Source: Thiorhodospira sibirica ATCC 700588 (GTDB lineage: Bacteria > Pseudomonadota > Gammaproteobacteria > Ectothiorhodospirales > Ectothiorhodospiraceae). Taken from it: a stretch of DNA of 64,000 nucleotides. The notes beneath the pieces are model-generated. The model searched no databases and was not told where the DNA came from. It saw only the letters and a list, made by a program, of their open reading frames with translations. Below, one piece after another: positions 21,480-50,233 of the stretch; the stretch's first letter is position 1; each line of letters starts with the position of its first letter. The DNA lies in the NCBI RefSeq assembly GCF_000227725.2, contig NZ_MU255057.1:103483-167482 (forward strand), in the 5' to 3' direction. Both the position numbers and the translations under genes were made by a program.

Positions 21480-22649
21480 ATGAATCTACACGAATACCAA
21501 GCCAAGGCGCTGCTGCGTGATTATGGTATTGCCCTGCCCCCGGCAGTGGCGGTGCGCTCCCTTGATGAATTGCCACAGGCCTGTGCGCAGCTGGGCGGGG
21601 ATCAGTGGGTGGCCAAGGCGCAGATTTATGCCGGCAGTCGCGGCAAGGCGGGGGGAATCAGGGTGGCCAAGGGCACCGCTGAGCTGCGTGAGGTTGTTGA
21701 GGCCATGCTGGGGAGTCAGTTGGTGACGCCGCAAACCGGCCCGGAGGGGTTGCCGGTGCATACCGTGTTGCTGGAGACGCCGGTGGCCATTGCCCGCGAG
21801 CTTTATGTGGGGCTGCTGGTGGATCGCTCGCATGGACGCATTACCTTGGTGGTTTCCGATGCCGGGGGTACGGATATCGAGGAGGTGGCGGCCCAGACCC
21901 CGGAGCGTATTATTACCCTGTTTTTGGACCCCATTGCCGGATTGATGCCCTATCAGGCACGGCGGGCGGCCTTTGGCCTGAATCTGCAGGGGGCACAGAT
22001 CAATGCCCTGGTGACCTTGTTGACCCAGCTGTATCGGCTGTTTTTGGCGGTGGATGCGACCCTGATTGAGATCAACCCGCTGGTGGTGGATGCTGATGGC
22101 ACGCTGATGGCCCTGGATGCCAAGATTACCCTGGATGATAACGCCTTGTATCGGCAAACGGCACTGGCCGCCTTGCGCGATGTCTCGCAAGAAGATGAGC
22201 GTGAGGTCAAGGCGCGTGAGCAGGCGCTCAATTATATCCATCTGGGCGGCAATATCGGCTGTATGGTCAACGGCGCCGGGCTGGCGATGGCCACCATGGA
22301 TCTGATCAAATTGCACGGCGGCGAACCGGCCAATTTTCTGGACGTGGGCGGGGGCACGACGGCTGAACGGGTGACCTATGCGTTTAAGCTGATTCTTGAG
22401 GATCCGGCTGTGCGAGCGGTGTTTGTGAATATCTTTGGCGGGATTGTGCGCTGTGATCTGATTGCCGAGGGGATTATTCAGGCCGTGCGTGAGGTGGGGG
22501 TTAAGGTGCCGGTAGTGGTACGCCTGGAGGGAACCAATGTGGATCAGGGACGGGAATTATTGCAGGCCAGTGGGCTAAATATCATCACCGCCAGCGATTT
22601 GACCGATGGCGCGCAAAAGGCGGTGACCGCCGCGCAAGGGGGGCTGTGA
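21480..22649 (+). CDS. sucC: Succinyl-CoA (or malate-CoA) ligase, beta subunit
   Basis: 389 aa. ATP-grasp subunit beginning [17 protein letters not shown], with '[20 protein letters not shown]' and '[19 protein letters not shown]', and the C-terminal ligase domain '[19 protein letters not shown]'. It forms an acyl-CoA with ATP cleavage. Succinate is the default substrate; malate-CoA ligases are close relatives and cannot be excluded by eye. TGATG coupling to sucD. Confidence 0.9.
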
Positions 22650-23518
22650 TGGGCATTTTGGTGGATGCACAGACGCGGGTGATTTGTCAGGGCTTTACCG
22701 GCAAGCAGGGCACCTTTCATGCCGCCCAGGCGCTGGCCTACGGGACGCAGATGGTCGGCGGGGTAACGCCCGGCAAGGGCGGACAGACCCATTTGGGCCT
22801 GCCAGTCTTTGATACGGTGGTCGAGGCGGTGCGCGAAACCGGTGCCAATGCCAGCATGATTTATGTGCCCGCCGCCCTGGCCGCCGATGCGATTCTGGAG
22901 GCTTTTGATGCCGGGATCGGGGTGATTGTGTGCATCACCGAGGGCATTCCGGTTTTGGATATGCTCAAAGTCACGGCAGTGCTTTCGGGCAGCACGGTGC
23001 GCTTGATCGGCCCGAATTGTCCGGGGGTGATTACTCCCGGCGCCTGCAAAATCGGCATCATGCCGGGACATATTCATCAGTCGGGCTGTGTCGGGATTGT
23101 CTCGCGCTCAGGCACGCTGACCTATGAAGCGGTCAAGCAAACCACCGACACCGGTCTGGGGCAAAGCACCTGCGTAGGCATTGGCGGTGATCCGATTCAC
23201 GGCATGGATTTCATTGACTGTCTGGATCTGTTTGAACAGGACCCGCAGACCGAGGGCATTATTCTGGTCGGTGAGATCGGCGGCACCATTGAGGAAGAGG
23301 CCGCCGAACATATCAAGGCCCATATCAGCAAGCCGGTGGTGGCACATGTGGCCGGGGCGACCGCCCCCACCGGGCGGCGCATGGGTCATGCCGGGGCGAT
23401 TATCGCCGGTGGCAAAGGGACTGCTGAACAAAAATTTGCAGCCCTGCGCGCTGCCGGGGTTGAGGTGGTGGCCTCGCCAGCGGATATGGGTGCCCGCATC
23501 AAGGCGCTCTTGGACTAA
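22649..23518 (+). CDS. sucD: Succinyl-CoA (or malate-CoA) ligase, alpha subunit
   Basis: 289 aa. CoA-binding Rossmann domain '[19 protein letters not shown]', '[20 protein letters not shown]', and the phospho-His motif '[20 protein letters not shown]' near 248. The ATG at 22649 shares a base with the sucC stop. The operon continues without 2-oxoglutarate dehydrogenase genes; instead yjbQ-like and RuBisCO-like genes follow closely. Confidence 0.92.
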
Positions 23519-23562: not shown

Positions 23563-23988
23563 ATGAAATATCTGCAGGAAACCTTGAGCTTAAGCACCGT
23601 TACGCCACTGCAAATCATCGACCTGAGCGAGCCGGTGCGTGCCTTTGTGCAATCCAGCGGGCTGCAAAACGGCCTGCTGACGATTTTCTCCACCCATACC
23701 ACCGCCTATATCAGCATTAACGAACAAGAGGCCCTGCTGGAAAAGGATATGCTGGCCTTTCTGAAACGTCAGGCACCCCGTGATGGGGATTATCAGCATA
23801 ATCTCAAGCCTGCGGACGGGCGCGATAATGCCCATGCCCATCTGCTGGGCCTGTCGATGAATGCCTCAGAAAGCATCCCGCTGTATGCCGGCAAGCTGGC
23901 CTTGGGAACCTGGCAATCGGTGTTTTTTATTGAACTTGACGGCCCGCGTCCGGCGCGTCAGGTGATCCTGCACTTAATGGGAGATTAG
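23563..23988 (+). CDS. YjbQ/UPF0047 family protein
   Basis: 141 aa. '[27 protein letters not shown]' and '[21 protein letters not shown]' are the metal-ligand-rich signature of UPF0047. Some members show weak thiamine-phosphate synthase activity; the physiological role is unclear. It lies 44 bases after sucD and five bases before the RuBisCO-like gene, so all four are probably one transcript. Confidence 0.9.
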
Positions 23989-23993
23989 CCCCC

Positions 23994-25298
23994 TTGCATC
24001 CGCACGACATTAGCGGCTTTTTTGCCTCGCTGGAACAGTTAAACCGCGATGATTATTTAATCCTTGATTACTATCTGGAGTGTCAGGGCGATCCCGAACT
24101 GGCGGCGGCACATTTTTGCAGTGAGCAGTCTACTGCCCAATGGAAGCGCGTGGGCGTGGATGAGGATTTTCGCCCACGCTTTGGCGCCAAGGTCATTGAG
24201 CTGCGCATCCTGGAACGTCTGGAAGCCCCCAGCTATCCCCTGGATACGCCGTTTGCCGGGCCGTTGACCGCCTGTCGCCTCAAAATTGCCCACCCGCACG
24301 CCAATTTTGGCCCCAAACTGCCCAATCTGCTCAGTGCCATCTGTGGGGAAGGGGTGTTTTTTGCCCCCGGCATTCCCATTGTCAAACTGCTGGATATTGA
24401 ATTTCCCGCCGTCTATCTGGAGGCCTTTGCAGGCCCTAAATTCGGCATCCAGGGTCTGCGCGAGCAACTCAAGGTGCAGGATCGACCGATTTTTTTCGGT
24501 GTGATCAAGCCCAACATCGGACTCGCGCCAGAACCCTTTGCCCAGGCGGGCTATGAAAGCTGGCTGGGCGGGCTGGATATTGCCAAAGACGATGAAATGC
24601 TGGCCGATGTCAGCTGGTCTACCCTCGAAACCCGCTCGCGTCTGCTGGGTGCGCTACGCCAGAAGGCCGAACAGGAAACCGGCGAGCCGAAAATCTATCT
24701 GGCCAATATCACCGACGAGGTTGACCGGCTGTTGGCCCTGCATGATATCGCCGTTGCCAATGGGGCCAACGCCTTGATGGTGAATGCCTTGACCACCGGC
24801 CTAAGCGCCGTGCGGATGCTACGCAAACATACCTCTGTGCCGCTGGTGGGGCATTTTCCGATGATTGCCGCCTTCAGCCGTCTGCCACATTATGGCATCC
24901 ACAGCCGCGTATTTACCCACCTGCAGCGTATCGCCGGTTTTGATGTGATCATCATGCCCGGTTTTGGGTCACGCATGATGACCCCACATGCCGAGGTATG
25001 TGACTGCGTGCAAGCCTGTACCGATGACCTCAGTGCATCACTCAAACCCGCCCTGCCGGTGCCTGGCGGCAGTGACTGGGCGGGCACGCTGGCGGGTGTT
25101 TATGAGCAGGTCGGCTCCATTGATTTTGGTTTTGTGCCGGGGCGCGGCGTCTTCAGTCATCCACAAGGACCGCGTGGCGGTGCCGCCAGCATCCGCCAGG
25201 CCTGGGACGCCATTCGTCAGGGCATCGCCTTGCCAGACTATGCCCGCGAACACCCCGAACTGGCGGCGGCAATACAGGCTTTCGGGGCGCGGGAGTAA
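23994..25298 (+). CDS. RuBisCO-like protein, form IV (Photo-type)
   Basis: 434 aa. The whole length resembles the form IV 'Photo' proteins of Chlorobium and purple sulfur bacteria, e.g. '[20 protein letters not shown]' near 40. The carbamate-lysine motif [10 protein letters not shown] (K198, D200, E201) and K172 of the IKP strand are kept. The second active-site Lys of KPK is Asn (N174), and the loop 6 Lys is missing: the stretch reads [10 protein letters not shown] (321-330). The SGG phosphate motif is PGGSD. It cannot be a carboxylase by these criteria. A Chlorobium homologue is linked genetically to sulfur oxidation and stress. TTG start at 23994, with GGGAG just before. Confidence 0.93.
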
Positions 25299-29550: not shown

Positions 29551-29764
29551 GCAGAGACTGCATCAAACACTTCCAGATCAGGCAGATATAAAGCCTTCTT
29601 GTGGTAAAACGCAGTTGTGCTGGGCACAACAATTCCCGTTGATCCAAGCAAGCCTGATTTTTATTTTTTGAGGCTTGAATATCAAAAGCTTAGGGCTGTG
29701 TTTCTGGCGAAAAATGCGCACGTTTATGAAGCGAAGGCGGAGTATTGAGGTATATGGCAGGGAT

Positions 29765-29824
29765 GTAAAAACAAATGTCTGTCAACCCAATTCTGTAAAA
29801 ACAAATGTCTGTCAACCCAATTCA
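29765..29824. repeat. 30-base tandem duplication at the ISNCY left end
   Basis: The unit 29765-29794 (GTAAAAACAAATGTCT plus 14 bases of the element's left end) is repeated at 29795-29824 with only the last base different. The first 16 bases of the unit also follow the element's right end at 31253-31268, so each unit is target sequence plus IS tip. Confidence 0.95.
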
Positions 29825-31254
29825 GAAAAGTCCCCTTTTGTGCAAAGCAGAAGTGTCCCCCGTAGAATGCGTGGTTATGGTGTTTGGGCTGGTGCCGGAG
29901 TGATGTTGCCCCGACCTCTCCAAGGGTGGTCCGGCGCCGGTTTGTAGGTTGGCTTGGCGGTCTGTTTTGCCTTGGCCTGGTCGACGCTGTGGTGGACACT
30001 TTTTTCATCATCCAGCGGTGTGGGCGGTTCGCCCTCAGCCAACAGACGGTAAGGCATGATGTGCCCCTGGTGCAGGAGGGTGATGGTGCCGTCGAAGGCC
30101 TCGCAGACGGTGAGGGTGGCACCCCGCAGGCGGTAGCCCTTGCCCTGTCCCTGAAGCTGATATTCCCGGTTCTTGAACTGGAAGCAAAGGTTCTTGGAGA
30201 GCTTACGGGTATGGTGCAGGCAAAGGATGAGGGCCTGCTCCTCGGGGCTGTGCAGCACCGGTCGGTGGGCATCCTGGGGGCTTTGTGGCTCGACGGCGAA
30301 GCGGGCGTTGAAGTCGGCCATGAAGGTGGGGAGGAAGGCGTTGGCGGCGTCGATGTCCGAGATCTCACGCAGGCGCAGCTCCTTGACCAAACGGTCTTGC
30401 AGGGTCTGGTTGGCCCGCTCCACCCGCCCCTTGGCCTGAGGCGTGTTGGCATGAATGGCGGCGATGTCGAGGGTCTTGAGGGCGCGGGAAAACTGGGTCA
30501 GCTCCCCGTCGTGCTCAGGATGATTGACACGGAAGATGCTGTGTTTGTCTGAGTAGAGGGCCACCGGACGTCCGTGCTGATCCAGGTATTGCTGTAGGGT
30601 CTCCATGTAGGCCTGGGTGGTCTCGGCGGGCACGAAGCGCAGGGCCATCAGGCGCCCTGTGGCGTCGTCGATGAACACAATCAGGGTACAGCGCGGGCCG
30701 CGCACCTCAAACCAGTCATGGGGCGAGCCGTCGATTTGAATGAGCTCCCCCAGGCAGGGGCGGCGTGGACGGCGCTGATGAATGCGGGCTTGCTTGCGTT
30801 GCTTGGGCTGCCATAGCCCATCGGCCACCATCCACTGGCGCAGGGTCTCGACCGAGAGATGATGACCATGGCGCTCGGCCAGCTTTTCGCAGGCCAGGGT
30901 GGGGCCAAAGTCGGTGTAGTGCGTCTTGACCAAGGCGAGCACCTCCTGGCGTACTGTCTCGGCAATGGCGTTATTGGGACGTCGGCCACGGTGGCCACTG
31001 CGTAGCCCTGTCGCCCCATGCTCACGATAGCGGCGAACCAGGCGCTTGACCTGGCGCACGCTCAACCCCAGGCGCTGGGCCGCCTCGGCCTGCCGCAGAT
31101 GCTTGTTCGCCACCGCCTGAATCATCTCTAGTCGGTCAATTTCTTTGTGACTCATCGTAATGTGCTCCTTCGTCATGCGTGCCCCTCCCGCTTAAATATA
31201 AAGGGGACATTTTAGAATTGGACGAAGGGGACATTACTGCTTTGGGCTAACAGT
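29809..31254 (-). mobile_element. Complete ISNCY/IS1202-like insertion sequence (copy 2)
   Basis: About 1445 bp. Left end CTGTCAACCCAATTCAG and right end (reverse complement) CTGTTAGCCCAAAGCAG form related termini, each followed by two TGTCCCC-type subterminal repeats, probably transposase sites. The flanks share GTAAAAACAAATGTCT (29795-29810 and 31253-31268), a target duplication of 13-16 bases depending on the exact tip. The right flank is the -35 region of the tRNA-Tyr promoter. Confidence 0.9.
29875..31155 (-). CDS. ISNCY-family transposase
   Basis: 426 aa. N-terminal helix-turn-helix ('QAEAAQRLGLSVRQVKRLVR'), then an rve-type DDE core: 'LIQIDGSPHDWF', 'VALYSDKHSIFR', and 'AKGRVERANQTLQDRLVKEL'. 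All three acidic residues are present and the frame is open, so the enzyme is probably active. A C-terminal beta-rich domain follows ('LCFQFKNREYQLQGQGKGYR'). The start at 31155 has an AGGAG; an ATG seven codons earlier is less likely. It is transcribed away from the tRNA operon. Confidence 0.93.
   Translation of the reverse strand: MSHKEIDRLEMIQAVANKHLRQAEAAQRLGLSVRQVKRLVRRYREHGATGLRSGHRGRRPNNAIAETVRQEVLALVKTHYTDFGPTLACEKLAERHGHHLSVETLRQWMVADGLWQPKQRKQARIHQRRPRRPCLGELIQIDGSPHDWFEVRGPRCTLIVFIDDATGRLMALRFVPAETTQAYMETLQQYLDQHGRPVALYSDKHSIFRVNHPEHDGELTQFSRALKTLDIAAIHANTPQAKGRVERANQTLQDRLVKELRLREISDIDAANAFLPTFMADFNARFAVEPQSPQDAHRPVLHSPEEQALILCLHHTRKLSKNLCFQFKNREYQLQGQGKGYRLRGATLTVCEAFDGTITLLHQGHIMPYRLLAEGEPPTPLDDEKSVHHSVDQAKAKQTAKPTYKPAPDHPWRGRGNITPAPAQTP

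Positions 31255-49140: not shown

Positions 49141-50233
<1,093 letters not shown>

Follow-up and report, generated by a model that had tools for sequence, protein, structure and literature searches.

A Photo-type RuBisCO-like protein in Thiorhodospira sibirica and its probable partner from a distinct YjbQ subfamily

Introduction

The function of RuBisCO-like proteins (RLPs) of the Photo type (IV-Photo) has been a question since the Chlorobaculum tepidum mutant work of 2001, and papers from 2011 to 2024 still call it 'unresolved'. RLPs of the DeepYkr group convert MTRu-1P to MTXu-5P, a reaction that leads to DXP (PMC5893883, PMC6302742). For RLP2, the IV-Photo protein of R. palustris, no MTRu-1P isomerase activity was detectable in vivo or in vitro, although slight conversion of MTRu-1P in vitro had been recorded earlier, and an rlp2 deletion mutant showed no phenotype in the conditions that were tried (PMC5893883). 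A 2018 paper named R. palustris as the only reported organism with two RLP subclasses and two RuBisCOs.

Here we analyse an RLP gene of Thiorhodospira sibirica together with its surroundings in a window of 64 kb, the term standing for the whole stretch of DNA under study, and compare it with RLP loci of other bacteria. An earlier note on this DNA had placed the gene in one transcription unit with sucCD and a yjbQ gene.

Results

Among PDB entries, the protein encoded by the RLP gene (Table 1) scores highest with R. palustris RLP2 (2qyg, 666 bits) and with the RLP of C. tepidum (1tel and 1ykw, ~645 bits); the next family, represented by 3nwr, follows at 210 bits. The protein also groups among IV-Photo sequences in the tree and is the only match of this type in the whole T. 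sibirica genome. On its sequence it is a IV-Photo RLP, as the earlier note had called it (666/646 bits against 210). Other assignments fit poorly: it scores 149.7 bits against the MtnW enolase family TIGR03332 (cut-off 513.6) and 240 against the OiaX 3-oxo-isoapionate-4-P decarboxylase family NF042437 (cut-off 700), it falls under the curated RuBisCO cut-offs, and 3qfw, of the DeepYkr MTRu-1P isomerase group, is outside its 60 best PDB matches.

Residues were mapped by aligning the protein with IV-Photo relatives, 3nwr and the form I RuBisCO of the same genome, using RuBisCO residue numbers which we take from the motifs. The carbamate site is kept (K201 to K198, D203 to D200, E204 to E201) and invariant in the alignment, and K175 is kept as K172, while the lysines K177 and K334 of RuBisCO are replaced by N174 and R327. 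The earlier note had recognised both the retained carbamate site and the loss of the second KPK lysine and of the loop-6 lysine; the alignment adds the identity of the replacements. Further changes are R295 to F288, H327 to I320, N123 to E119 and G403 to R384, of which the first two imply that the distal-phosphate site of RuBisCO is gone. With this site lost and loop 6 lacking its lysine, carboxylation of RuBP does not appear plausible. The residue pattern makes it plausible that the protein carries out metal- and carbamate-dependent enolate chemistry with a monophosphate substrate, in agreement with the enolate chemistry without carboxylation that had been proposed.

Table 1. Features of the yjbQ-rlp locus and its upstream neighbours (positions in the window).
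Feature	Position	Strand	Remarks
sucC, succinate-CoA ligase beta, judged passenger	21480..22649	+	PRK00696 546 bits (cut-off 370)
sucD, succinate-CoA ligase alpha, judged passenger	22649..23518	+	PRK05678 453 bits (cut-off 336)
yjbQ-P (UPF0047/YjbQ, RLP-linked subfamily)	23563..23988	+	TIGR00149, PF01894; sole YjbQ of genome
rlp, IV-Photo RuBisCO-like protein	23994..25298	+	intact ORF, 434 aa, TTG start after GGAGA box
KPN of RLP (K172, P173, N174)	24507..24515	+	Asn in place of second KPK Lys; first Lys retained
Carbamate/metal motif K198-D199-D200-E201 of RLP	24585..24596	+	alignment
R327 of RLP in place of RuBisCO loop-6 Lys (K334)	24972..24974	+	alignment

The 3.2-Mb genome to which the window belongs (G000) encodes pufM (561 bits, cut-off 364), identifying a chlorophototrophic host, as well as RuBisCO of form I (L003) and another RLP. 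The latter is of the DeepYkr type (L002:1225-2325, also L232:7760-8860; G000:C4 near 1.438 Mb), with 3qfw as its best PDB match (336 bits), and plausibly takes the slot of MTRu-1P isomerase in T. sibirica. By eye, an MtnC-like gene was seen ~2 kb upstream of it. Within the window's family, which includes Ectothiorhodospira, pufM was found in all five RLP-positive members tested and in none of the 13 RLP-negative ones. There is an exception to the association with phototrophy: a 5.7-Mb gammaproteobacterial genome (G213) carries the pair of yjbQ and rlp (L017, G213:C28:77021-78746) with no detectable pufM. This organism is possibly a non-phototroph that keeps both genes and could be useful for recognising a phototrophy-independent function; reading the locus gave no clear functional hints around its pair.

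In the window, sucC and sucD overlap, and the gaps of 44 nt between sucD and yjbQ and of 5 nt between yjbQ and rlp, reported earlier, agree with the coordinates. A sequence scan between sucCD, yjbQ and rlp gave no promoter-like or terminator-like sites above shuffle expectation, and a single sucCD-yjbQ-rlp transcript is plausible but unproven. The contig scan for further RLP loci kept the best 80 of its 222 confirmed candidates; distant IV-Photo RLPs lie outside this set, for example that of Gemmatimonas phototrophica (PMC7844134). No sucCD was found beside the other 85 non-redundant RLP loci surveyed (flanks of up to 10 kb, less at contig ends) or in the 0.5 kb before yjbQ of the nearest relative, L026 (77% identical), and the sucD-yjbQ adjacency was seen in the window alone among the surveyed loci. 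Moreover, the genome has no second full gene for the beta subunit of succinyl-CoA synthetase besides sucC, which passes the succinate-CoA ligase cut-off and misses that of malate-CoA ligase (PRK14046, 512.9 bits against 604). In relatives, sucCD lies far from RLP and without yjbQ alongside. On the grounds of copy number, succinate-type scores and absence beside other RLP loci, we reject sucCD as a functional partner of the RLP and judge it to be an accidental neighbour. The survey of relatives had been set beforehand as a test of the proposed neighbourhood link, and it divided the claim: the association with YjbQ stood (47 of 47 proteobacterial loci) and that with sucCD was refuted. The suggested setting of an acid activated to a CoA thioester is likewise unsupported, and a sulfur-linked pathway found no support in the neighbourhoods surveyed.

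Several other elements of the window may be recorded. A P-II-like gene (49895-50233) is 26 kb from sucCD here and its homologue ~2-3 kb from sucCD in relatives (L224-L230), the sucCD region having been rearranged in the T. sibirica lineage. By eye, a transposase-like ORF (integrase-type, 433 aa, 29875-31176 on the minus strand) was seen in the interval from dgt to tuf; the sequence just past it (29675-29947) contains short repeats. Homologues of dxs, idi, puf and LsrF were not found within the 64 kb.

The surveyed proteobacterial RLP genomes comprised 47 non-redundant ones, 34 gamma (window included) and 13 alpha. Each of them, and also locus L028, has a YjbQ gene in the same orientation upstream of its RLP gene. 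The gap is at most 10 nt in 38 of these 48 linked loci and reaches 1.25 kb at L030; because the short spacing recurs across the RLP family, it is not due to chance. The 38 Chlorobiaceae RLP loci surveyed all lack an adjacent YjbQ. The pair at L028 (L028:9567-11299) comes from a Chloroherpetonaceae MAG, a member of the Chlorobiota that is placed at the base of the green sulfur bacteria, and the RLP encoded there is the sister of those of the Chlorobiaceae (SH-aLRT 90). Linkage of the two genes thus looks ancestral, both having been retained after their separation. For a MAG contig such as this one, a binning error is possible.

The window's YjbQ exceeds the cut-offs of TIGR00149 (114.4 bits, cut-off 67.75) and PF01894 (122.4 bits, cut-off 27), and reaches 223 bits against a profile of the RLP-linked subfamily, YjbQ-P (A3 model). 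In a tree of 97 YjbQ sequences, a long, well-supported branch (length 1.2, SH-aLRT 99) sets the 48 RLP-linked proteins and one from each of eight RLP-bearing Chlorobiaceae genomes apart from the other 41 copies, among them second copies from the same genomes. HMM scores separate the two sets likewise, at 206 bits or more for YjbQ-P and 104 or less for other YjbQs. Members of the subfamily have invariants of their own, one of them a short P-V/I-D-x-R insertion that precedes N-A-H. Each of the eight Chlorobiaceae genomes checked has exactly one YjbQ-P. Furthermore, YjbQ-P (208-229 bits, next 153) and RLP occur in the same four of 369 gammaproteobacterial genomes, a coincidence with a chance of 1 in C(369,4), or ~1e-9, under random placement and before allowing for relatedness. 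Distances among RLPs and YjbQs are correlated (r = 0.78), which is not proof of partnership, as shared descent would be expected to produce it. The AlphaFold model of YjbQ (pLDDT 90) matches only uncharacterised YjbQ structures (Z 16-21), the remaining fold matches being unspecific (Z of 5.6 or less). From the conserved adjacency, the separate subfamily and the co-retention where the genes lie apart, we consider it very likely that YjbQ-P is a dedicated partner of the RLP in a two-protein module. No papers tying YjbQ to RLPs were found in the open literature; an earlier mention in the subscription literature is possible.

The neighbours of the two genes differ among groups. In Chlorobiaceae, YjbQ-P lies directly upstream of dxs (TIGR00204, 818 bits against a cut-off of 466) on the same strand in 8 of 8 loci, with a gap of ~80-110 nt where it was read. 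Several Chromatiaceae (Allochromatium, Chromatium, Marichromatium, Thiosymbion and relatives) show the arrangement (bchZ)-pufLMC-yjbQ-rlp-idi, in most cases with lipA next; idi comes straight after rlp in 10 puf-linked loci of the survey. In two loci without puf genes, those of Thiococcus and Thiohalocapsa, idi lies within ~5 kb of the pair. Hence dxs and idi turn up as neighbours in unrelated arrangements. Given the conserved synteny of Chlorobiaceae, the eight dxs adjacencies amount to about one ancestral event, and photosynthesis gene clusters commonly house idi, so that its adjacency in the puf-linked loci is weak evidence by itself. For these two reasons, we hold a tie of the RLP-YjbQ-P module to DXP and isoprenoids at about an even chance.

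Chlorobiaceae RLP genes stand in a run of a class II aldolase-SDR fusion, an LsrF-like thiolase, RLP, an SDR and an LptE-like gene. The thiolase scores 510 bits (LsrF equivalog cut-off 297) and lies directly upstream of RLP in 36 of the Chlorobiaceae loci surveyed, and the fusion passes its subfamily cut-off. The fusion and the thiolase were noted at L032:6684-9912 and in the same place in at least 30 Chlorobiaceae loci, as a putative sugar-phosphate operon of green sulfur bacteria.

Discussion

Taken together, we favour the explanation that RLP and YjbQ-P form one metabolic module of chlorophototrophs, in which Mg- and carbamate-dependent enolate chemistry is tied to DXP and isoprenoid supply, although as a whole we give it slightly less than an even chance. 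With carbamylated Lys198 and a divalent metal, the RLP would enolise and isomerise a ketose monophosphate, and this step may supply, recycle or drain DXP-type isoprenoid precursors, in a pathway that would feed (bacterio)chlorophyll tails and carotenoids. YjbQ-P would work on the same metabolite. The Chlorobiaceae RLP operon, with enzymes of a deoxyketose-phosphate type, was counted in favour of this explanation. Since dxs lies beside YjbQ-P in that group, any DXP made through the RLP would be supplementary there. Also counted in favour were the joint occurrence of pufM and RLP in the window's family and the trace of MTRu-1P conversion by R. palustris RLP2; against the explanation speak the undetectable MTRu-1P isomerase activity of RLP2, the lack of a deletion phenotype and the pair in G213, where pufM was not detected.

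As a candidate substrate, structural reasoning suggests 5-deoxyribulose-1-phosphate, whose 1,3-isomerisation would give DXP directly; as the exact substrate it is doubtful. 5-Deoxyribose phosphates arise from 5'-deoxyadenosine, a by-product of radical-SAM enzymes (PMC6079011, PMC6302742), and 5'-deoxyadenosine is not mentioned in PMC5893883. The module might thus recycle the 5'-deoxyadenosine left by radical-SAM enzymes (BchE, HemN, LipA, ThiC). A shunt of this kind, which would carry 5'-deoxyadenosine from the radical-SAM enzymes of pigment synthesis to DXP and so into the isoprenoid portions of those very pigments, is a tentative idea that we rate as improbable. The near-inactivity of R. palustris RLP2 on MTRu-1P would be in keeping with a different substrate of a related kind, but is not proof of one. 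The gene mtnA, needed upstream of the proposed step, was found in 34 of 34 RLP genomes searched. It was considered as an RLP-specific companion and dismissed, being present likewise in nearly all members of the window's family that lack the RLP, so that it counts as no more than necessary context.

The same Chlorobiaceae operon could be read in a catabolic sense, with the RLP acting beside the SDR and the LsrF-like thiolase to isomerise a deoxypentulose phosphate for cleavage to DHAP and acetyl-CoA. Candidate substrates would be 4-hydroxy-5-phosphonooxypentane-2,3-dione or oxidised 5-deoxyribulose-1-P; on this view, dxs and idi would have no functional connection with the module. The scores of the thiolase and of the aldolase-SDR fusion, together with the position of LsrF directly before RLP, speak for this reading, as does structural reasoning: the LsrF substrate, 3-hydroxy-5-phosphonooxypentane-2,4-dione, corresponds to C4-oxidised 5-deoxyribulose-1-P. 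However, LsrF or the aldolase is near the pair in none of the surveyed proteobacterial loci and YjbQ-P is left without a role, and we think catabolism unlikely. For C. tepidum, a role in thiosulfate oxidation and oxidative stress has been proposed. A sulfur or redox function of this kind, with YjbQ-P processing a thiol-linked intermediate, could draw on the C. tepidum phenotype repeated in reviews and genome papers citing Hanson and Tabita 2001, and on a flavoprotein upstream in Ectothiorhodospira (cluster c22) that distantly resembles type III sulfide:quinone reductase. Yet no sulfur gene is conserved beside the pair across the genera surveyed and the R. palustris rlp2 deletion lacked such a phenotype (PMC5893883), which makes this role distinctly unlikely.

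The title of TIGR00149, 'secondary thiamine-phosphate synthase enzyme', brings thiamin into consideration: YjbQ-P would be a thiamin-phosphate synthase and the RLP would adjust DXP for thiazole synthesis. DXP is indeed a thiazole precursor and DXS requires ThDP, but a genuine thiE scores above its cut-off in 27 of 27 RLP genomes, by which YjbQ-P as the main thiamin-phosphate synthase was rejected, and the pair goes with phototrophy among members of the window's family. We regard a role in thiamin synthesis as highly unlikely. That the ligase and the RLP form one pathway on an acid activated as CoA thioester has in its favour the co-directional arrangement with short gaps in T. sibirica; the single, succinate-type copy, its location elsewhere in relatives and its absence from the other RLP loci and from the region before the L026 yjbQ render such a pathway extremely unlikely.

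With a dedicated partner kept one-to-one with the RLP in the genomes checked, and with DXP and isoprenoid contexts at hand, the question of Photo-type RLP function becomes a short list of assays. If the module explanation is true, it would provide the first specific role for a branch of the widespread and poorly understood YjbQ family. The shunt, itself undescribed, would if true assign both the orphan IV-Photo RLP and a YjbQ subfamily.

Among known systems, R. palustris RLP2 and C. tepidum RLP are 65-67% identical to the window's RLP and share with it the active-site pattern (K/D/E carbamate site, KPN, loop-6 Arg) and a phototrophic host; the window's locus differs from those of the other surveyed IV-Photo RLPs in having sucCD alongside. 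The DeepYkr RLPs, MTRu-1P 1,3-isomerases of R. rubrum and R. palustris (RLP1) represented by 3qfw, have the RuBisCO fold in common and set a precedent for monophosphate enediolate isomerisation feeding DXP in the MTA-isoprenoid shunt. They are a different family, however, for which T. sibirica has a separate gene, and IV-Photo RLP2 lacks detectable MTRu-1P activity (PMC5893883). MtnW of Bacillus, the DK-MTP-1P enolase, is likewise an RLP enolase acting on a monophosphate, and the window's RLP is far below the TIGR03332 cut-off. On the side of the partner, E. coli YjbQ, 1vph and 1vmj have a common fold (Z 16-21) and most family-conserved residues with YjbQ-P, which is set apart from YjbQ/UPF0047 at large as a separate branch with invariants of its own that tracks the RLP.
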